This document shows, piece by piece, positions 7,239 to 32,485 of a stretch of DNA of 32,676 nucleotides. The position numbers and the translations under genes are program-made. The notes beneath the pieces are model-generated. The model searched no databases and had not been told where the DNA came from. It saw only the letters and a program-made list of their open reading frames with translations. Each line of letters begins with the position of its first letter. The stretch's first letter is position 1. The stretch is from contig JAFEBR010000991.1 in assembly GCA_018242565.1 (NCBI GenBank), positions 1 to 32,676 on the forward strand, written 5' to 3'. This DNA is from Planctomycetota bacterium. GTDB taxonomy: Bacteria > Planctomycetota > Planctomycetia > Planctomycetales > Planctomycetaceae.

Positions 7239-7667
7239 ATGAAACCGCACCGCCGGATGTCCTGGCATGAGTTCTGCGATGCGGTCGAAGAAGCGGTCTC
7301 CTCGCTTCCTCCCCCTTTTCAACCCTACCTCGAAAACGTCGCCGTCGATGTCGCCGATGAACCCTCTGCCCAGGATTACGCCGTTCTGTCTGAACGCGGC
7401 GTGGCCGCCGAGGGACTTCTGCTGGGATTGTTCATTGGCGTCCCCCTGACCAAACAGTCCTGGGGAGACCGGAGTCCCAACCTCATCAAGATTTTTCGTC
7501 GGCCCCTCGAACAGGTCTGCCACACCCGGCGACAACTCTTACGGCAGATCCGCGCTACGGTCATTCACGAATTCGCGCACCATTTCGGTTTCAGCGAAGA
7601 ACAACTCGAGGCCTTTGAAGCCGCCCAGCGAGATCTCGATAAGCGCGAACACGGCGGGGAAGAGTGA
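7239..7667 (+). CDS. Zincin-like metallopeptidase family protein (PF06262 type)
   Basis: A 142-residue soluble protein with the zinc-peptidase motif HEFAHHFG (H110, E111, H114) followed by S/E-rich residues. Upstream comes the family pattern: LPPPFQPYLENVAVDV near residue 23, GLLLGLFIGVPL at 59-70 and IKIFRRPLEQ at 83-92. Length matches these small proteins (about 120-150 aa). They are known as possible zinc metallopeptidases, with substrates unknown. The start ATG 7239 has a weak GGA upstream. The gene stands alone between the ricT operon (divergent) and the tRNA pair (convergent). No signal peptide is visible, so it is probably cytoplasmic. Confidence 0.88.
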   Translation: MKPHRRMSWHEFCDAVEEAVSSLPPPFQPYLENVAVDVADEPSAQDYAVLSERGVAAEGLLLGLFIGVPLTKQSWGDRSPNLIKIFRRPLEQVCHTRRQLLRQIRATVIHEFAHHFGFSEEQLEAFEAAQRDLDKREHGGEE

Positions 7668-7793
7668 CCGCCGATTGGCCAAACCTGCCACGCGGAATCT
7701 GCCTTGTCTGCCGAATCCTGGGTCGCGACTTTCGAAAACCGACGGCCAATTGGCGCAGAGCAACCGCGCAATTTGCCAGCAGTGGTGAGCCCG

Positions 7794-7805: not shown

Positions 7806-7806
7806 G

Positions 7807-7879
7807 TGGAGACGACCGGGATCGAACCGGCGACCTCCGCGTTGCAAACGCGGCGCTCTCCCAATTGAGCTACGTCCCC
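7807..7879 (-). tRNA. tRNA-Ala(TGC)
   Basis: Minus-strand 73-base cloverleaf. The acceptor 5' strand GGGGACG pairs with CGTCTCC with one G-T pair. The D arm is AGCTCAATTGGGAGAGC. The anticodon stem CCGCG/CGCGG holds loop TTTGCAA (anticodon TGC). The T arm contains the invariant GGTTCGATCC. The discriminator base is A and CCA is not encoded. It lies 62 bases after tRNA-Ile, in the order Ile-Ala usually seen inside rRNA spacers, but no rRNA is present. Confidence 0.95.
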
Positions 7880-7941
7880 AGAATGCGTGTTCGATGTGCC
7901 ACGGGGCCGGTCGGTCGTCGTGGGCATTGTCGAAGTTTGAA

Positions 7942-8016
7942 TGGGCGCACATGGATTCGAACCATGGACCTCAGCCTTATCAGGGCTGCGCTCTGAACCA
8001 ACTGAGCTATGCGCCC
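7942..8016 (-). tRNA. tRNA-Ile(GAT)
   Basis: Minus-strand 75-base cloverleaf. The acceptor GGGCGCA pairs with TGCGCCC. The D arm is AGCTCAGTTGGTTCAGAGC. The anticodon stem CAGCC/GGCTG holds loop CTGATAA (anticodon GAT). The T arm is GGTTCGAATCC. CCA is not encoded. It is the first gene of the two-tRNA unit and lies about 70 bases after a candidate promoter. Confidence 0.95.
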
Positions 8017-8271: not shown

Positions 8272-9696
8272 TTAAAAGAGAGCCTGTAGCGGTCTACCCC
8301 CCACCACCCGTTGCCGACGGCCGGCAAGATCCACCACCTCAGTGTCGCTGTCGTAACCCAGCGCATGATAAATCGTGGCCACAAAGTCGCTCACATGCAC
8401 CGGACTGTCTTTGGGATCCCCCGCGAGATTGTCGCTCTTGCCATACACCTGGCCTCCCCGCACCCCTCCCCCTGCCAGTACGGTGGAATACACGCGGCCC
8501 CAATGATCGCGCCCGGAAGGATTGTTGCCATTCATTAAGGGAGTCCGGCCAAATTCCCCCGTCCACGCTACCAACGTCGAATCGAGCAGGCCCCGATCCG
8601 CCAGGTCATCGAGTAAGGCCGCAAACGCCCGATTGAGGGGCGGCAGCAACCAGTCGCGCGTGTGTTCCAAGTGGCTGGAATGCGTGTCCCAACCGCCGAA
8701 AATCACCGTGACCAGAGTGACCCCGGCTTCCACCAGTCGACGGGCGGTCAAACAACTGCGTCCCAGGCGATCGTCGCCATACCGGGCCCGCAACGAAGCC
8801 GGTTCGTCATCGATCGAGAACGCCTTCCAGGTCGAACGGGTCCCCAGCACATCCAAAGCCTGCGTCCGATAACGACCCCAGTCGCGCGCCAGCCGGGTTC
8901 CGTCTCCAAACGCCGGTTGCTCCAGCCGCGACTGCAGATCCAGCCGCTTCCCCAATCGCTCGCGGCTGATCTCTTCTCGCAACTGGAAACTCGATGGCAG
9001 AGTTCCCGGCAGGCTGGCTTCCCCCTGGGCCGGCAGGTTGTTGAAGTCCACATTGAGCTTCAAGTACCCATAGTCCATCACCAGCGGGTCATATACCTTG
9101 CCCAGAAAACCGGCGTGTTGGCCGGCCCATTCCCGCCCGGGACCATCCTGGGTGATCCACATCGGCATCTGCACTGACACCGGTAGACCGCCCCGCCCTT
9201 CGCGCAACTGGTTGAGCACCGCCCCGATCGCCGGATGATCCCGCCGATCCATGAACGGTTCCCCTTCGCGCGGAAAGTTGGCCCAGCCCGTCAGGTTGTA
9301 ATGCACCCCGGCACCGTGAAATAACGCGTTCCCCCCATGGTGGACCGAACGAATGATCGAAAACCGATCGGCCTGCCGGGCCAGCTCAGGCAGCAGTTCG
9401 CAGATTTCGATCCCGGGCACATTGGTGGCAATCGGCTTAAACAGGCTGCGGGCCGTCCCGGGCGCCTCGGGCTTCATGTCGAACGTTTCCTGCTGCGGGG
9501 CGCCACCCAGCATATACAGCAGAATGCACGACTTGGCCGCACCGAAGCCACCGGCCGGATCCCGGGCCGGGGCCGCCTCTGCCGCGCGGCTGGCCAGCAT
9601 ATCGGGCAACGTCAACCCCAGCCCCGCCAGCGCTCCCGACTGGAGAAACGTCCGCCGGGCGAGCGGCGTGGCCGCATGCAGAGGAGAGAGATTCAT
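8272..9696 (-). CDS. DUF1501 domain-containing protein with Tat signal
   Basis: A 474-residue member of DUF1501, a family greatly expanded in planctomycetes and related to sulfatase/alkaline-phosphatase-fold proteins; the function is not established. The N-terminus has a twin-arginine signal (RRTFLQSG at residues 14-21, then a hydrophobic stretch), so export in folded form is likely. Family patterns seen are CILLYMLGGAPQQETFDMKP, HHGGNALFHGAG, TLVTVIFGGWDTH near 320, GEFGRTPLMN near 377 and GRDHWGRVYS near 391. DUF1501 genes usually pair with a DUF1549/DUF1553 cytochrome gene, but none is adjacent. Instead it lies 18 bp after the last Uma2 gene. The start ATG 9696 has only a weak ribosome site. 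Confidence 0.9.
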   Translation of the reverse strand: MNLSPLHAATPLARRTFLQSGALAGLGLTLPDMLASRAAEAAPARDPAGGFGAAKSCILLYMLGGAPQQETFDMKPEAPGTARSLFKPIATNVPGIEICELLPELARQADRFSIIRSVHHGGNALFHGAGVHYNLTGWANFPREGEPFMDRRDHPAIGAVLNQLREGRGGLPVSVQMPMWITQDGPGREWAGQHAGFLGKVYDPLVMDYGYLKLNVDFNNLPAQGEASLPGTLPSSFQLREEISRERLGKRLDLQSRLEQPAFGDGTRLARDWGRYRTQALDVLGTRSTWKAFSIDDEPASLRARYGDDRLGRSCLTARRLVEAGVTLVTVIFGGWDTHSSHLEHTRDWLLPPLNRAFAALLDDLADRGLLDSTLVAWTGEFGRTPLMNGNNPSGRDHWGRVYSTVLAGGGVRGGQVYGKSDNLAGDPKDSPVHVSDFVATIYHALGYDSDTEVVDLAGRRQRVVGGRPLQALF

Positions 9697-9714: not shown

Positions 9715-10284
9715 TTATGGTTTCAGGGGAAATAACGTCGCCACCGCCAGCGAAATTTCGGGAAACGCCAGCGGTTGGATTTCGTCACCCGCCTTGAACA
9801 CCTGATGCTCGCGGTACTTTCCCTGTTCGGGTTGTCTAAAGACTTCGACGCATTTGTCGGGAATATTCACAACCCAATAATCGACGACTCCCCCGGACGC
9901 GTACAGGCTCGCTTTTTCGCCGCAGTCGTATTCCAGGCTGCTGTCGGCGATTTCGACGATCAGGAAGACGTCGGCCGATGTCGGGCGAACGGTGAGATAG
10001 TCTTTTTTTACAAGCCACAAGACATCCGGCTCGGGCACACTTTCCAGTCCGCTAATCTCCAGTGCTGCCTGAAAGCGGGTTGTTGCTCGATGGATTGACG
10101 CATTCCGATAACTCCAGTCGGTCAGGGCTTCCATCAGCCAATCATGCACCGGTCCGATCGGGGTCATGGGACGCAATTCTCCATGAATGAACTCGCTTCG
10201 CGGCGATTCACCGGTGGAATCGAAGTGGCCTGACGCGATCAGTCGATCGTAATCGGCAATCGTCATTCGTGTGATCGTGGACAT
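9715..10284 (-). CDS. Uma2 family endonuclease-like protein (copy 1)
   Basis: A 189-residue member of the Uma2 family (PF05685), which has a PD-(D/E)xK nuclease fold and mostly unknown function. Putative active-site elements are EPDVLWL, then FLIVEIADSS, then CGEKASLYASGGVVDYWVV. The start is ATG 10284 (MSTITRMTIADYDRL) because all four copies begin this way and GAGG lies 8 bases upstream; the open frame continues upstream only into the neighbour. It is the last Uma2 gene of the array, 16 bp after copy 2 and 18 bp before DUF1501. Its last third is nearly identical to copy 2 at DNA level (9759-9940 versus 10342-10523) while the middle is diverged, suggesting gene conversion. Confidence 0.88.
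   Translation of the reverse strand: MSTITRMTIADYDRLIASGHFDSTGESPRSEFIHGELRPMTPIGPVHDWLMEALTDWSYRNASIHRATTRFQAALEISGLESVPEPDVLWLVKKDYLTVRPTSADVFLIVEIADSSLEYDCGEKASLYASGGVVDYWVVNIPDKCVEVFRQPEQGKYREHQVFKAGDEIQPLAFPEISLAVATLFPLKP
9759..9940 (-). repeat. Near-identical repeat A, copy in Uma2-1
   Basis: This 182-bp segment aligns without gaps to 10342-10523 at an offset of exactly 583 bp, with about nine mismatches by hand count. Identity drops sharply on both sides. Confidence 0.85.
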
Positions 10285-10368
10285 CTTCAGGGCCTCGTTT
10301 TCATTTCGCCGGAAACAACAAGGCAACCGGACAATTGACGGCGGGAAACGCCAGCGGCCGGATTTCGT
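10226..10368 (-). repeat. Near-identical repeat B, Uma2-1/Uma2-2 junction
   Basis: About 143 bp covering the start of copy 1, the 16-bp spacer and the end of copy 2. It aligns without gaps to 10809-10951 at an offset of 583 bp, with about nine mismatches. Confidence 0.85.
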
Positions 10369-10867
10369 CACCCGCCTTGAACACCTGATGCTCGCGGTAC
10401 TTTCCCTGTTCGGGTTGTCTGAAGACTTCGACGCATTTGTCGGGAATATTCACAACCCAATAATCGGCGACTCCCCCGGACGCGTACAGGTTCGCTTTTT
10501 CGCCACAGTCGCAGGCCAGGCTGAAATCGGCGACTTCAATGATCAGTAAAACATCTTGAGACGCCGGACGTTGGTTTCGAAAATCCCCTTGTCTGATCCA
10601 AATGACATCCGGTTCAGGAACTGATCCCGATTCGTGAAACGCCACGCATCCCTGAATTCGGATGGCAACCAGGTCCTCCGAAGTCGTCCGGCAACTCCAG
10701 CGGTTGAGTCGTTCCACCAGCCAGTCGTGAATCGGTCCGATCGGGCTCATGGGGCGCAATTCTCCTTCGATGAGCTCGGTCCGTTCGATTCCCGTCGGCG
10801 TATCGAAATGGCCTGACGCGATCAGTCGATCGTATTCGGCAATCGTCATTCGTGTGATCGTGGACAA
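10301..10867 (-). CDS. Uma2 family endonuclease-like protein (copy 2, TTG start)
   Basis: A 188-residue Uma2 protein with the same layout as copy 1: EPDVIWI, LLIIEVADFS and CGEKANLYASGGVADYWVV. The start is taken as TTG 10867, which aligns exactly with the ATG of the paralogs (LSTITRMTIAEYDRL) and has the same GAGG ribosome site in a 16-bp spacer. The ATG-to-TTG change may lower its expression. The open frame continues upstream, but only as overlap with copy 3. One motif residue differs from the paralogs: ADFS instead of ADSS after the putative catalytic Glu. Confidence 0.85.
   Translation of the reverse strand: MSTITRMTIAEYDRLIASGHFDTPTGIERTELIEGELRPMSPIGPIHDWLVERLNRWSCRTTSEDLVAIRIQGCVAFHESGSVPEPDVIWIRQGDFRNQRPASQDVLLIIEVADFSLACDCGEKANLYASGGVADYWVVNIPDKCVEVFRQPEQGKYREHQVFKAGDEIRPLAFPAVNCPVALLFPAK
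10342..10523 (-). repeat. Near-identical repeat A, copy in Uma2-2
   Basis: Partner of 9759-9940 (same orientation, 583 bp away). It encodes the stretch from the K-A-x-L-Y-A motif to near the C-terminus. Confidence 0.85.
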
Positions 10868-10951
10868 CTTCAGGACCTCGTTTTCATTTCGCCAGAAACA
10901 ACGGGGCAACCGGAAAATTGACGGCGGGAAACGCCAGCGGTTGGATTTCGT
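10809..10951 (-). repeat. Near-identical repeat B, Uma2-2/Uma2-3 junction
   Basis: Partner of 10226-10368. It covers the start of copy 2 (including the TTG), the 16-bp spacer and the end of copy 3. Confidence 0.85.
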
Positions 10952-11450
10952 CGCCGGGCTTAAAACACTCGTGGCTCCGGTATTCACCGTCGCGGGGTTG
11001 TCTGAAGACCTCAACGCAACGGTCGGGAATATTCACGACCCAGTAATCCACGATGCCGCCCGTGGCAAACAGGCGAGCTTTGGTGCCACGATCGTAATCG
11101 AGGCTGGAGTCGGCGACTTCAATAATGCCCAACACGGCCGCGGGTTGTGGTCGACCACTGCTGTAGTCGTCACGTTTCACCCAGGCAATGTCTGGCTGCG
11201 GAGCGCTGTCCAGCGATGGAATCCCGATGGAATTCTGAATGCGAACGCGAACGAGATCGCGTGGAAGATTCGTAAGGCTCCATTCGGTAAGCAGATCGAC
11301 CAGATTCTCGTGTGACGGCCCGATCGGACTCATGGTCAGAATTTCCCCCTCGATCAATTCCAATCGCGGGCGCACCGACTCACCTTCGAAGTCGCCTTTG
11401 GCAATCATGCGATCGTAATCAGCGATTGTAATGCGCGTCATCGTGGACAT
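10884..11450 (-). CDS. Uma2 family endonuclease-like protein (copy 3)
   Basis: A 188-residue Uma2 protein starting at ATG 11450 (MSTMTRITIADYDRM), with the GAGG ribosome site in the 16-bp spacer. Putative active-site elements are QPDIAWV, LGIIEVADSS and RGTKARLFATGGIVDYWVV. The Cys of the other copies before the catalytic-type Lys region is replaced (DRGTKA instead of DCGEKA). Its start lies exactly 583 bp from that of copy 2. It is more diverged from copies 1 and 2 in the central region than near its ends. Confidence 0.88.
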   Translation of the reverse strand: MSTMTRITIADYDRMIAKGDFEGESVRPRLELIEGEILTMSPIGPSHENLVDLLTEWSLTNLPRDLVRVRIQNSIGIPSLDSAPQPDIAWVKRDDYSSGRPQPAAVLGIIEVADSSLDYDRGTKARLFATGGIVDYWVVNIPDRCVEVFRQPRDGEYRSHECFKPGDEIQPLAFPAVNFPVAPLFLAK

Positions 11451-11466
11451 AACTTGATCCTCGAAC

Positions 11467-12030
11467 TCAAATCGCGGGAAACAGCAATTTCACCGGCAGT
11501 GAAATCTCTGAATCAAGGAGCGGATGAACTTCTGCGCCCGTTTTGAACACCTGACGGCTGTGATACGTCCCATTGACCGGTTCGCGAAAAACCTCGACGC
11601 ACTTGTCCGGGATGTTCACCACCCAATAGTCGGCAATACCGGCACTGGCGTAGAGGTTCGCTTTCTCGCCGCAGTCGTAGGCCAGGCTGGAGTCGGCGAC
11701 TTCGATCAGCAGCAGGACGTCTTGCGGCGACGGTTGCTCCGACCCATAGTCCTTTCGGACGAGCCAGGCGACGTCCGGCTGAGGGGCACTTTCGAGTTGA
11801 CGAATCCAGAACGAGCTTTGGATCCACACATGCGGCTTCTCCGCCGGTCGATTTTCGAAGCTCCATTCGGTGAGCAGTGTCACCAGCATCTGGTGCGGAG
11901 GCTTAGTCGGACTCATCTCGCGAACTTCTCCGTCAATCAGTTCCACGCGCCGCCTGAGTCCCTGTTCAAACGCACCTGCCGCAGTCAATCGACCGTAGTC
12001 GTCCAGCGTCATTTGCGTTGCGATGCTCAT
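11467..12030 (-). CDS. Uma2 family endonuclease-like protein (copy 4, first in array)
   Basis: A 187-residue Uma2 protein with QPDVAWL, LLLIEVADSS and CGEKANLYASAGIADYWVV. The start ATG 12030 (MSIATQMTLDDYGRL) is preferred because it aligns with the paralog starts; ATG 12039 would add three residues and has AGGA just upstream. The TatD-hydrolase gene stops at 12046, so the ribosome site lies in the last bases before or within that stop and the two are probably cotranscribed. It is the most diverged of the four copies, with a period of 580 rather than 583 bp. Confidence 0.87.
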   Translation of the reverse strand: MSIATQMTLDDYGRLTAAGAFEQGLRRRVELIDGEVREMSPTKPPHQMLVTLLTEWSFENRPAEKPHVWIQSSFWIRQLESAPQPDVAWLVRKDYGSEQPSPQDVLLLIEVADSSLAYDCGEKANLYASAGIADYWVVNIPDKCVEVFREPVNGTYHSRQVFKTGAEVHPLLDSEISLPVKLLFPAI

Positions 12031-12045
12031 GTCCCCCATCCCTTC

Positions 12046-12891
12046 CTACTTGGAGTGTATCGCCTCTTCATCCCGCACCGTATCTGGCGCCGTAAACTTA
12101 AAGTTCCGCGACTGTCGGAAGAATTCGAGCGGGTTGTCGTACACGATCTTTTTGATCTTCGAATCGGGATGACCCCGGCGACGCATCTCCATCACGAAAT
12201 CGGGCACAGCCAACGGGTTCGACGGACCCCAGTCTCCCGCCGAGTTCACCATGATCCGCTCGTCGCCATACATCTCGATGATGTCCGCCGCGCGGGCCGG
12301 CGTACACTTCGTCAGCGGATACAGCGTCATCGCGCACCAGAAGCCGTGATCCTTCGCGACACGCACCGTGTGTTCTTCGACGTGGTCGATCAGCACCCGT
12401 TCGGGCTCGACCCGCTTATCTTCCAACAGCATGTCCACGATCATTTTCGTCCCCTTGAACTTGTCCTTCAGGTGGGGCGTGTGGATCAGGATCAGTTCCC
12501 GGGTCTTCATCGCCAGATCCACCTGCTCGCGGAAGATCGTCGATTCGTTCATGGTGTTTTTGTTCAGGCCGATTTCGCCGATGCCCAGCACGTTGGGCTT
12601 ATCGAGAAACTCGGGAATCAGCGAAATCACTTCCCGCGACAGGGGAATGTTCTCGGCTTCCTTGGCGTTGATGCACAGCCACGTGTAGTGCTGAATGCCG
12701 CACGCCGCGGCCCGCGTGGGTTCGAACTCTGTGAGTTGCCGAAAATAATCGCGGAAGCTCTCGGCACTGCCGCGATCGAACCCGGCCCAGAAGGCGGGCT
12801 CGCTGATCGCTACGCAGCCCATCCGGGCCATCCGCTCGTAGTCGTCGGTGACGCGAGAAATCATGTGGACATGAGGGTCAATGTAGTACAT
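12046..12891 (-). CDS. TatD-family metal-dependent hydrolase, EboB-like
   Basis: A 281-residue predicted TIM-barrel amidohydrolase of the TatD type. Metal-ligand candidates are DPHVHM (residues 5-10), GIGEIGLN near 143, ILIHTPH near 174, LIDHVEEHT near 205 and SAGDWG near 255. The sequence ([13 protein letters not shown] near 30, FEPTRAA near 57) resembles EboB, the TatD-like member of the eboA-F cluster in algal-plastid relatives and bacteria. That is my recollection of the family; no other ebo gene is next to it. The start ATG 12891 has GAGG 7 bases upstream. It lies 16 bp after the 264-aa unknown gene and directly before the Uma2 array. Confidence 0.85.
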
Positions 12892-13773: not shown

Positions 13774-14109
13774 CTAACGGGCCGCTTCAAACCAGTCCTT
13801 GATCACACTCCAAAAATTCTGCAATGCCGGATTCGCTCCGCGTGCAACGCCAAATTCAGCCTTCAGTCCTGCAAGGTCGACAAGTTTATCGAGATCGTGC
13901 GTCCAGCAGTCTGCCAACCTCTTGAGATATCCCGCCTCGCCAAAGATTGCCGCCGATTCACCTAAATGCCGCAGCAGACACGCCTTGAGGCCGCATTCAA
14001 TTGTGTAACCGCAAAAATAATACGCCCCAGACCAGCGCTCTTGTACCAGCAGAGATTTCGCATCGCGGAGCCGGGAGAAGGCGATTTTTTTCAGTTGCGT
14101 GCGATCCAC
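13774..14109 (-). CDS. HEPN domain-containing protein
   Basis: A 111-residue all-helical protein with the HEPN signature AYYFCGYTIECGLKACLLRH at about residues 29-48. An R-x6-H arrangement (RLADCWTH) follows at about residues 64-71, within the R-x4-6-H spacing associated with HEPN ribonucleases. HEPN proteins are often toxins paired with MNT antitoxins, or parts of other defence systems; here no MNT gene is adjacent. The start is GTG 14109 with AGGAG 9 bases upstream. The next gene downstream is the 264-aa unknown protein. Whether it is an active nuclease cannot be told from sequence alone. Confidence 0.8.
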   Translation of the reverse strand: MDRTQLKKIAFSRLRDAKSLLVQERWSGAYYFCGYTIECGLKACLLRHLGESAAIFGEAGYLKRLADCWTHDLDKLVDLAGLKAEFGVARGANPALQNFWSVIKDWFEAAR

Positions 14110-30276: not shown

Positions 30277-30894
30277 TCAACCGGCAAGCCGTTGCCGGAG
30301 TTCCCAGCCCAGCACAAGCAGATTGATGGCCACCAGCCAACTGGCCGCCACGCGGACCACGATCTGCTGCCACCCGTGCGAACACTTGACCGCCAGCGAG
30401 GTCACCCAGGCGGTCACCATGAACACGCACGCCACGTTGCCGGCCAGCACCAACGGCCCATCCGTGAGCGCACGAAATTCGCCCCCATTGGTCAGGCCCC
30501 ATCCCAGGCCTATGACTGACGAGAACACTCCGATGATCGCTGGCGAACAGCGAAGCCGGGCGGCGACCAGCACGGCGACCAGCAACGTGGCCCCCGCCGC
30601 GACAGACACGGGGACCGTAAACGGCCGGCTCCATTCCATCTGGCCCAGCAGCATTCCGACCAGCCAACTGGCGGTGAGCGACAGCAAAGCCGTACGGCCC
30701 GCTGCCGGCCCCGCGGCTCCTGCCAGCAGCGACAGCGCCAACACCATCATCAAGTCGGTCGGCGTCACAAATGGGTGACAAAGTCCATCATAGAACGGCC
30801 CAAATTGGGTATTCACCAGGTGAGCCTGCGCCACCGCCGGGTACAGCAGCACCAGGCCACTGCAGAGTCCCGAAATCATCCGACTGCGGTTCAT
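30277..30894 (-). CDS. HupE/UreJ-like membrane protein, third and divergent (205 aa)
   Basis: Polytopic membrane protein. A signal-like segment (MISGLCSGLVLLYPAVAQA) ends before AHLVNTQFGPFYDGLCHPFV, and about six hydrophobic helices follow. The pattern FYDGLCHPFVTPTDLMMVLAL aligns with the HupE/UreJ motif G-F-x-HP-x-G-x-DH-x-LAM, but the metal-associated HxxGxDH is reduced to HPFVTPTDL, with the second His missing. HupE/UreJ proteins are nickel/cobalt permeases in hydrogenase or urease clusters; this copy may have lost metal transport or have a structural role. ATG 30894 overlaps the stop of the previous gene (ATGA), indicating coupled translation. Confidence 0.78.
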   Translation of the reverse strand: MNRSRMISGLCSGLVLLYPAVAQAHLVNTQFGPFYDGLCHPFVTPTDLMMVLALSLLAGAAGPAAGRTALLSLTASWLVGMLLGQMEWSRPFTVPVSVAAGATLLVAVLVAARLRCSPAIIGVFSSVIGLGWGLTNGGEFRALTDGPLVLAGNVACVFMVTAWVTSLAVKCSHGWQQIVVRVAASWLVAINLLVLGWELRQRLAG

Positions 30895-31487
30895 GCGACG
30901 GCCCGATACAGAAAAAACAAACCGCCGGCCGCAATCAGCAACCCAGCCCACTGGATGACTTTCGCCCCCCACGTCCAGCGGTCGATCAGCCCCAGCAGAA
31001 TCCCGGCAGCGTGGAGCAATCCCGTCCCGATGACAAACCCTATGGAATATAAAACTCCGCTGTCGCCAGCCGGCAACTCCGTGCCGTGTGCGTGTCCATG
31101 AAAGATCGCAAACACTCCGACGATGGTCAGGGCCACGGGCAGCGGCGGTCGGACCTGTCGAAAAACCAGCCCTCCCAGAATCAGCGCCGACAGCGCGATT
31201 CCAAACTCAATCCCCGGCAAGGGCACTCCGATCAATCCCAGAAATCCGCCACAGGCCATGACCATGGGAAAAGCAACTGGCAGCAGCCAGATCGCCGGAG
31301 CCCCCAGTTGCGCCCCCCACAAACCCACTGCCACCATGGCCAGGACATGATCGGGCCCAAACATCGGATGGGTGAATCCATTGAGGAAGCCCCCCGTCGG
31401 ATCCCCGGCATGGGCCAGCACAACGCGTGGCAGGGTCAGGCACAAGACCGCAGCCCCGATCAGCACAGACAGCTTGCGTGTTTTCAT
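30891..31487 (-). CDS. HupE/UreJ family metal permease (198 aa)
   Basis: Canonical-length HupE/UreJ protein. A signal-like helix covers about residues 1-25 (LSVLIGAAVLCLTLPRVVLA), then AHAGDPTGGFLNGFTHPMFG and PDHVLAMVAVGLWGAQLG (the HPxxGxDH motif, about 39-47). About six further helices include GVFAIFHGHAHGTELP with several His residues. HupE and UreJ import nickel for hydrogenase or urease; no such enzyme genes are visible here, so the metal and purpose are open. The start overlaps the stop of the longer upstream protein by 4 bp, and the stop overlaps the next start by 4 bp. Confidence 0.9.
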   Translation of the reverse strand: MKTRKLSVLIGAAVLCLTLPRVVLAHAGDPTGGFLNGFTHPMFGPDHVLAMVAVGLWGAQLGAPAIWLLPVAFPMVMACGGFLGLIGVPLPGIEFGIALSALILGGLVFRQVRPPLPVALTIVGVFAIFHGHAHGTELPAGDSGVLYSIGFVIGTGLLHAAGILLGLIDRWTWGAKVIQWAGLLIAAGGLFFLYRAVA

Positions 31488-32485
31488 GTCACCAGCCCCA
31501 TAGCCAAGGCCACGCGCTGCAGCGTCCAGAACGCCCCCAGCGTCCCCACCGCGTAACCGGGCAGATACTCAGCCCAGCGCGGCCAGCGGATTTCCAGCGT
31601 CCGAAATGCATCCAACAGTGCCAGAATGATCAGCACAAAGCCGATTTGCCCGATTTCGACCCCCACATTGAACATCAACAGGCCGAACACCAGTTCCGAT
31701 CCGGAAATCCCCAGTTCCGACAGACCGCTGGCAAAACCGAACCCGTGCAGCAGTCCGAACAAAAACGCGACCACCCACGGATGGCGGATCGTAAAACTCG
31801 TTTCCCCGCGCCACACCCGCACGATCTCGGGCCCCAGAAAGAGAATCGACAAGGCGATGGCCGCATTGAGCGGCGGCACCGGAACCCGGGCGTAACCCAA
31901 AGTCGCGAGCGCCAACGTCAGACTATGGGCCACAGTAAACGCCGTGATCGTTTTCAGCAGTCGCAGCCGACCCGACACAATCAATAACAAACCCAGCACG
32001 AACAGCAGGTGGTCCACCCCCAGCAGGATATGTTCGATCCCAATCTTCAGGAACGACACAGCGACCTGCCATTGGCTGGGCGAAGCCGCCACGACAAACG
32101 ACGGGGCGCTGGGTGACAACCGGGTCGTCTGGGTCTTACCATCGCGGCGTACGACACGCACCAGAACATCAATCGTGGTCGCCGAGAGTCCGTCGATGGC
32201 AATGGTTTTGTCGGTCAGACTGCCCGGGCACCGGATACTCCAGCGTTCGAGCGACACCGCATCGACAATGCCCCCGCGCGTGCCAGAGATCGCCTGGCAT
32301 TCCGACGGCAGACGGACATAAATCCCCAGTCGCAGATCGCCCCGTGCCGGCACCCGCCAGAACACGTCGTACGTGTCTTCCCCCGTCTGGGTCAGTTCCA
32401 GATAGGCCGAACGTGTTTCATGAGCCTGCGCCGGCAGGACGCTGGCCCACACGATCATACCGGCGAGAACCCAGCTGCGCTTCAC
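31484..32485 (-). CDS. HupE/UreJ-type membrane protein with N-terminal extracytoplasmic domain (333 aa)
   Basis: Two-part membrane protein. A signal peptide covers about 1-21 (WVLAGMIVWASVLPAQA-HE). Residues 22-140 form a beta-rich extracytoplasmic domain (YLELTQTGEDTYDVFWRVPA). From about 145 a HupE/UreJ_2-type membrane domain begins with FLKIGIEHILLGVDHLLFVL and several helices, including FTVAHSLTLALATLG and LFGLLHGFGFASGLSELG. Metal-binding His/Asp patterns are present (IEH, GVDH, AHS, LHGFGFA). GTG 32485 is the start; it overlaps the stop of the upstream isomerase-like gene by 4 bp. It is the first of three HupE-like genes. A role in metal uptake is inferred. Confidence 0.85.
   Translation of the reverse strand: MKRSWVLAGMIVWASVLPAQAHETRSAYLELTQTGEDTYDVFWRVPARGDLRLGIYVRLPSECQAISGTRGGIVDAVSLERWSIRCPGSLTDKTIAIDGLSATTIDVLVRVVRRDGKTQTTRLSPSAPSFVVAASPSQWQVAVSFLKIGIEHILLGVDHLLFVLGLLLIVSGRLRLLKTITAFTVAHSLTLALATLGYARVPVPPLNAAIALSILFLGPEIVRVWRGETSFTIRHPWVVAFLFGLLHGFGFASGLSELGISGSELVFGLLMFNVGVEIGQIGFVLIILALLDAFRTLEIRWPRWAEYLPGYAVGTLGAFWTLQRVALAMGLVT

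Follow-up and report, generated by a model that had tools for sequence, protein, structure and literature searches.

Neighboring genes in a tandem array of Uma2 genes from a planctomycete are nearly identical at their ends and junctions but strongly diverged in their centers (residues ~48 to 108). Short-tract gene conversion and unequal exchange probably homogenize the ends and junctions of this array of PD-(D/E)XK nuclease-like genes, while the centers persist as old, diverged types. Two tracts of ~150 to 170 bp in three of the genes (U1 to U3) show low synonymous divergence beside near-saturated centers, and mosaics of the same kind occur in other tandem Uma2 arrays.

A tandem array of four Uma2 genes

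The window, that is, the whole stretch of DNA analyzed, comprises 32,676 nt (positions 1 to 32,676 of contig JAFEBR010000991.1, Planctomycetota bacterium, GCA_018242565.1) and comes from an assembly of 9.3 Mb that carries nine Uma2 genes. Four of these (U1 to U4) form a head-to-tail array on the minus strand with a period of 583/580 bp, flanked by genes for a TatD-like and a DUF1501 protein (Table 1). A recount reproduced exactly the spacing on which the original prediction was built: the genes start at 10284, 10867, 11450, and 12030, in steps of 583, 583, and 580 bp, and each of the three intergenic spacers is 16 bp long and contains GAGG. U2 starts with TTG and the other three genes with ATG. 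Other features of the window include a short HEPN-domain protein (13774-14109, minus strand) upstream of the TatD-like gene, with a score of 22 bits that is exactly the Pfam cutoff and a weak match to PADLOC PDC-M28A; adjacent tRNA-Ala(tgc) and tRNA-Ile(gat) genes (7806-8016, minus strand), a pair often located in rRNA spacers; and three similar membrane ORFs in a row (30277-32485, minus strand), the first of which is HupE/UreJ and the others alike by eye.

Table 1. Coordinates of the Uma2 array, its neighbors, and its shared and diverged segments in the window
Feature	Coordinates	Strand	Remarks
U1, Uma2 gene	9715..10284	-	ATG, TAA; PF05685, 107 bits; E31/H47/D87/E111/K124 equivalents kept
U2, Uma2 gene	10301..10867	-	TTG start, TGA; PF05685, 105 bits; active-site residues kept
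U3, Uma2 gene	10884..11450	-	PF05685; active-site residues kept; AlphaFold model, pLDDT 94.7
U4, Uma2 gene	11467..12030	-	PF05685; active-site residues kept; first of array, 15 bp after TatD-like gene
16-bp spacer U2-U1	10285..10300	-	Contains GAGG
16-bp spacer U3-U2	10868..10883	-	Contains GAGG
16-bp spacer U4-U3	11451..11466	-	Contains GAGG
TatD-like hydrolase, upstream neighbor	12046..12891	-	PF01026, 28.9 bits; 93% identical in congener G001
DUF1501 protein, downstream neighbor	8272..9696	-	Pfam; 78% identical in G001
Tract A copy 1 (U2 3' end, spacer, U1 5' end)	10219..10369	-	10/151 mismatches to 10802-10952
Tract A copy 2 (U3 3' end, spacer, U2 5' end)	10802..10952	-	Match to copy 1
Tract B copy 1, in U1	9759..9928	-	6/170 mismatches to U2
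Tract B copy 2, in U2	10342..10511	-	Match to copy 1
Diverged center of U1 (residues ~48-108)	9961..10143	-	Segment identity, dS, codon comparison
Diverged center of U2	10544..10726	-	Segment identity, dS, codon comparison
Diverged center of U3	11127..11309	-	Segment identity, dS
Diverged center of U4	11710..11892	-	Segment identity, dS

The Uma2 family is hugely expanded, and its function is unknown. All four genes exceed the cutoff of the Pfam Uma2 model (PF05685/COG4636; 105 to 114 bits against 27) and keep H47, D87, E111, and K124, the PD-EXX-K site and conserved His delineated for Uma2 by Feder and Bujnicki in 2005 (PMC551604). The nuclease fold that had been proposed from the sequence was borne out by the AlphaFold model of U3, for which the best PDB matches (6okh, 9y1l, 1wdj, and 3ot2; E ≤ 3e-7) are solved Uma2 structures. 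On this model, the diverged center covers the end of the helix at residues 45 to 61, the strand at 67 to 71, the loop preceding D87, and the loop at 93 to 105, with D87 itself constant. Uma2 has been described as a likely solo toxin encoded mostly in cassettes of paralogs (PMC2701414), and tandem runs, including a run of four in Crocosphaera watsonii, were reported in 2005 (PMC551604).

Shared ends, diverged centers

When the region was compared with itself, a shift of 583 gave 65% identity, against 29% for the runner-up among 270 shifts. The mismatch counts given in the original prediction were reproduced for both of its near-identical blocks (9/182 for 9759-9940 versus 10342-10523 and 9/143 for 10226-10368 versus 10809-10951), and its diverged gene centers are equally evident, with 109 differences in 285 positions between 9941-10225 and the segment 583 bp further on; the pattern is thus one of near-identical end blocks against diverged centers, not of uniform divergence. 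With the units aligned in register, U1 and U2 have two stretches in common: codons 1 to 22, with 2 mismatches over 65 bp, and codons ~119 to 175, a block of 170 bp with 6 mismatches. The longest run of matching polymorphic sites between them, 34, is significant by permutation (P = 0.0005). U2 and U3 have in common the last ~23 codons and the spacer, which make up the final 85 bp of the unit (7 mismatches). Physically, tract A runs from the 3' end of one gene across the spacer into the 5' start of the next. No comparable near-identical block links U4 to the other array genes. A single exact 583-bp duplication was rejected as the origin of the pattern, given that the near-identity of the U3-U2 and U2-U1 junctions covers only ~151 bp of the period.

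The contrast extends to synonymous sites. Among codons for the same residue in U1 and U2, 1 of 19 differ at the N end and 3 of 49 at the C end, compared with 12 of 22 in the center (Fisher P = 2.6e-6); correspondingly, dS is 0.06 for codons 1 to 20, 1.08 for codons 51 to 110, and 0.13 for codons 111 to 165. For U2 and U3, dS falls to 0.21 at codons 166 to 190 and is about 0.8 or more elsewhere. Because synonymous sites are near-identical in the ends and near-saturated in the center, the mosaic reflects recombination and not protein constraint alone.

The original interpretation was that gene conversion or unequal crossing-over maintains the array while the central regions actively diversify. 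Its first half agrees with the synonymous-site contrast, with the variation in copy number among relatives, and with the recurrence of the pattern in independent arrays, the last two described below. Its second half found no support: dN/dS in the central region, computed as had been proposed, is below 1. Positive selection in the center was rejected with values of 0.25 to 0.48 over codons 51 to 110 of the four genes where computable, the remaining pairs being saturated; the value for U1/U2 is 0.47, at distances near saturation. Values above 1 appeared in a few pairs only at a 7- to 8-codon segment (codons 21 to 30), too short to count. Furthermore, the centers of tandem copies differ at synonymous sites about as much as those of dispersed paralogs (0.52 versus 0.59) and so look like old segments that escaped conversion, not like newly diversified ones.

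Recurrence of the mosaic in other tandem pairs

Under one uniform test, for a significant long block of high identity, 11 of 27 adjacent tandem pairs showed the mosaic, with the N and/or C end near-identical and residues ~48 to 108 diverged; the remaining 16 showed no significant mosaic, so that homogenization is not universal. The center was the segment of lowest identity in all 11 mosaic pairs, and the best block lay wholly within a gene end in 10 of them, starting at residue 93 in the other (L170). Examples come from Planctomycetota (L066, L069, L072, and L170) and from a Methylomonas MAG (L036), and two more pairs that fall outside the spacing filter (L070 and L150) have C ends of high identity. 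The sole cyanobacterial pair tested, on a Pseudanabaena plasmid (L177), is old and not mosaic. A tandem pair that is 90% identical throughout (L071; G046:C65) represents a young duplicate without a mosaic.

In a within-genome all-against-all comparison of 108 genes, the mosaic was absent from full-length dispersed pairs, none of which had a 60-bp bin above 0.87; the sole dispersed match to an array that reached 0.90, in one 60-bp bin, was a truncated copy (L111). The synonymous difference in center and ends was 0.52 and 0.27 in mosaic tandem pairs, 0.59 and 0.50 in dispersed paralogs, and 0.33 and 0.30 in orthologs, which puts the age of tandem centers close to that of dispersed paralogs and makes tandem ends younger. 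The corresponding center-versus-ends odds ratios were 3.15, 1.44, and 1.18, the first of which is inflated because the mosaic pairs were pooled by the presence of a block, a selection that was not applied to the dispersed and ortholog controls. The recurrence of the pattern in tandem arrays of other bacteria suggests that Uma2 genes vary in their middle parts within a common frame.

Copy number at orthologous loci

The comparison of copy number among relatives that the original prediction had proposed yielded four genes here, none in the congener G001, and one after the TatD-like gene in G049 and G037. In G001, the one other genome searched in the same genus, the TatD-like and DUF1501 neighbors are separated by a 27-bp gap with no Uma2, and the TatD-like gene before the single copy of G049 and of G037 is the ortholog of the one here; the array was therefore gained, amplified, or lost within one genus. 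Of the array genes, U3 comes nearest to the one Uma2 of G049 (61% identity). In G037, Uma2 genes lie on both sides of the TatD-like gene (L054, 4648-5715 and 6550-7188). All 61 sampled genomes of the same family carry Uma2, with 1 to 38 copies each, among which tandem pairs and triples are frequent.

Conversion of ends or replacement of centers

By itself, the U1-U4 array fits both conversion of the ends and replacement of the centers. A locus in another genus (g68), at which aligned stretches are ~76 to 92% identical between genomes, bears on the choice. One relevant Uma2 copy is present in G085 and in G070, and two (a and b) in G091. The C ends of a and b are identical at 135 of 135 positions and match the single-copy relatives at 122 to 124 of 135 (0 differences between a and b versus 11 against G085; P = 0.0008). 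In the center, a is nearest to G085 (142/180) and b to G070 and G074 (137/180), and the two match each other at only 116 of 180 positions; bootstrap values at this locus are moderate (70 to 93). Thus, center types are common to different species and C ends are homogenized inside one genome; the ends look recently converted and the centers old. Segment-wise protein trees with distant relatives were short and weakly supported and were left out of the argument.

At a single-copy syntenic locus of Methylomonas, identity between M. fluvii and LW13 falls to 0.65 to 0.80 in the Uma2 center, with flanks at ~0.9, so that the center is variable or fast-evolving even without an array. Two of six species pairs have a raised synonymous difference in the center (15/37 versus 22/122, P = 0.007; 24/44 versus 28/121, P = 0.00025). 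A second sharp dip in identity (0.45 to 0.77) lies ~1 kb after Uma2 in the same conserved syntenic region (L033 ~7420-7780 versus L034).

These observations bear on an alternative in which recent tandem duplicates took up imported or shuffled segments in place of their centers (cassette exchange) and the ends were not converted. Such replacement would yield the same mosaic, and the synonymous excess in the single-copy Methylomonas center speaks for it; we nevertheless regard it as unlikely. No donor was seen: the genome's five other Uma2 copies were rejected as a source, since blastn links the array genes to none of them. At g68, the centers sort by species-shared type and the two C ends of one genome do not differ, as conversion of the ends predicts, and end identity in the array differs by pair (the C end in U1/U2, the tail in U2/U3), so that several end events would be needed anyway. 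That catalytic or structural constraint holds the ends without any recombination, while a tolerant center drifts or is positively selected, is highly improbable. Many dispersed pairs, and the Uma2 family as a whole, do show lower protein conservation in the center, but constraint would not make the ends near-identical at synonymous sites beside a center near saturation, a contrast that refutes this account for U1/U2; most of the contrast is missing in dispersed pairs and orthologs, and the spacer, too, is common to the U3/U2 and U2/U1 junctions.

Selfish proliferation, in which Uma2 nicks or cuts near its own copies and repair from neighbors gives rise to tandem duplication and conversion of ends, strikes us as distinctly unlikely. 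A homing-like spread of Uma2 was proposed by Feder and Bujnicki in 2005 (PMC551604), and tandem multiplication in several genomes, changes in copy number, and recombination footprints confined to neighbors would all fit; however, neither a cleavage site nor an activity is known, and ordinary homologous exchange between near-identical tracts of ~150 bp would suffice. Under the favored reading, conversion and unequal exchange at the ends, centers too different to pair would be shut out of conversion, and the conserved ends and near-identical junction would go on recombining, which could move whole centers and alter copy number. U1 to U4 are putative active nucleases with a shared frame and catalytic residues, and their centers might make differing substrate or partner contacts, as in a solo toxin or a single-gene defense nuclease; if so, the center may set the choice of substrate or partner.

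Implications and comparison with known systems

The mosaic marks residues ~48 to 108 as the part kept different between neighbors, which provides a testable hypothesis on the segment that sets the target, with the tandem mosaics serving as natural chimeras for testing it. Furthermore, whole-protein gene trees of Uma2 in tandem arrays can mislead.

U1 to U4 agree with Uma2/DUF820/COG4636 (PF05685) in profile score, fold, PD-EXX-K site, conserved His, and occurrence as tandem paralog cassettes. Such cassettes are already known, with most published counts from cyanobacteria, and the genes described here add homogenized ends with old center types, a mosaic of which no report was found in the open-access papers searched (subscription literature lay mostly outside the search). 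All four genes also match PADLOC PDC-S03 models (best E of 1e-11 to 7e-16), and PDC-S03, read as a candidate model for single-gene phage defense, is itself only a candidate. With respect to diversity-generating retroelements, a Pfam scan of proteins from part of the window's ORFs revealed no RT domain, and the variation in the array is central, with many synonymous changes.

The closest parallel is with Type I restriction specificity genes (hsdS), in which TRDs move between repeats (DOMO; PMC3077401). In both cases, a variable module lies between conserved or repeated flanks, and recombination at the flanks alters the number of copies and reshuffles the modules. The array thus displays a trait of movable TRDs in Type I/IIG systems, a variable module with homogenized flanks, as an analogy and not as membership: its neighbors are the TatD-like and DUF1501 genes instead of a Type I/IIG specificity-subunit context, and each Uma2 gene encodes one small nuclease-like protein that stands alone, with a single center and no methylase or translocase. 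A role in specificity is only putative for the Uma2 center. It is conceivable, although we hold this only tentatively, that tandem Uma2 arrays serve in general to diversify modules: conserved ends and junctions would be the arms at which recombination duplicates, deletes, and shuffles centers around the catalytic Asp, and a genome would thereby maintain a changing repertoire of single-gene nucleases that differ in target, the solo-nuclease counterpart of TRD shuffling.
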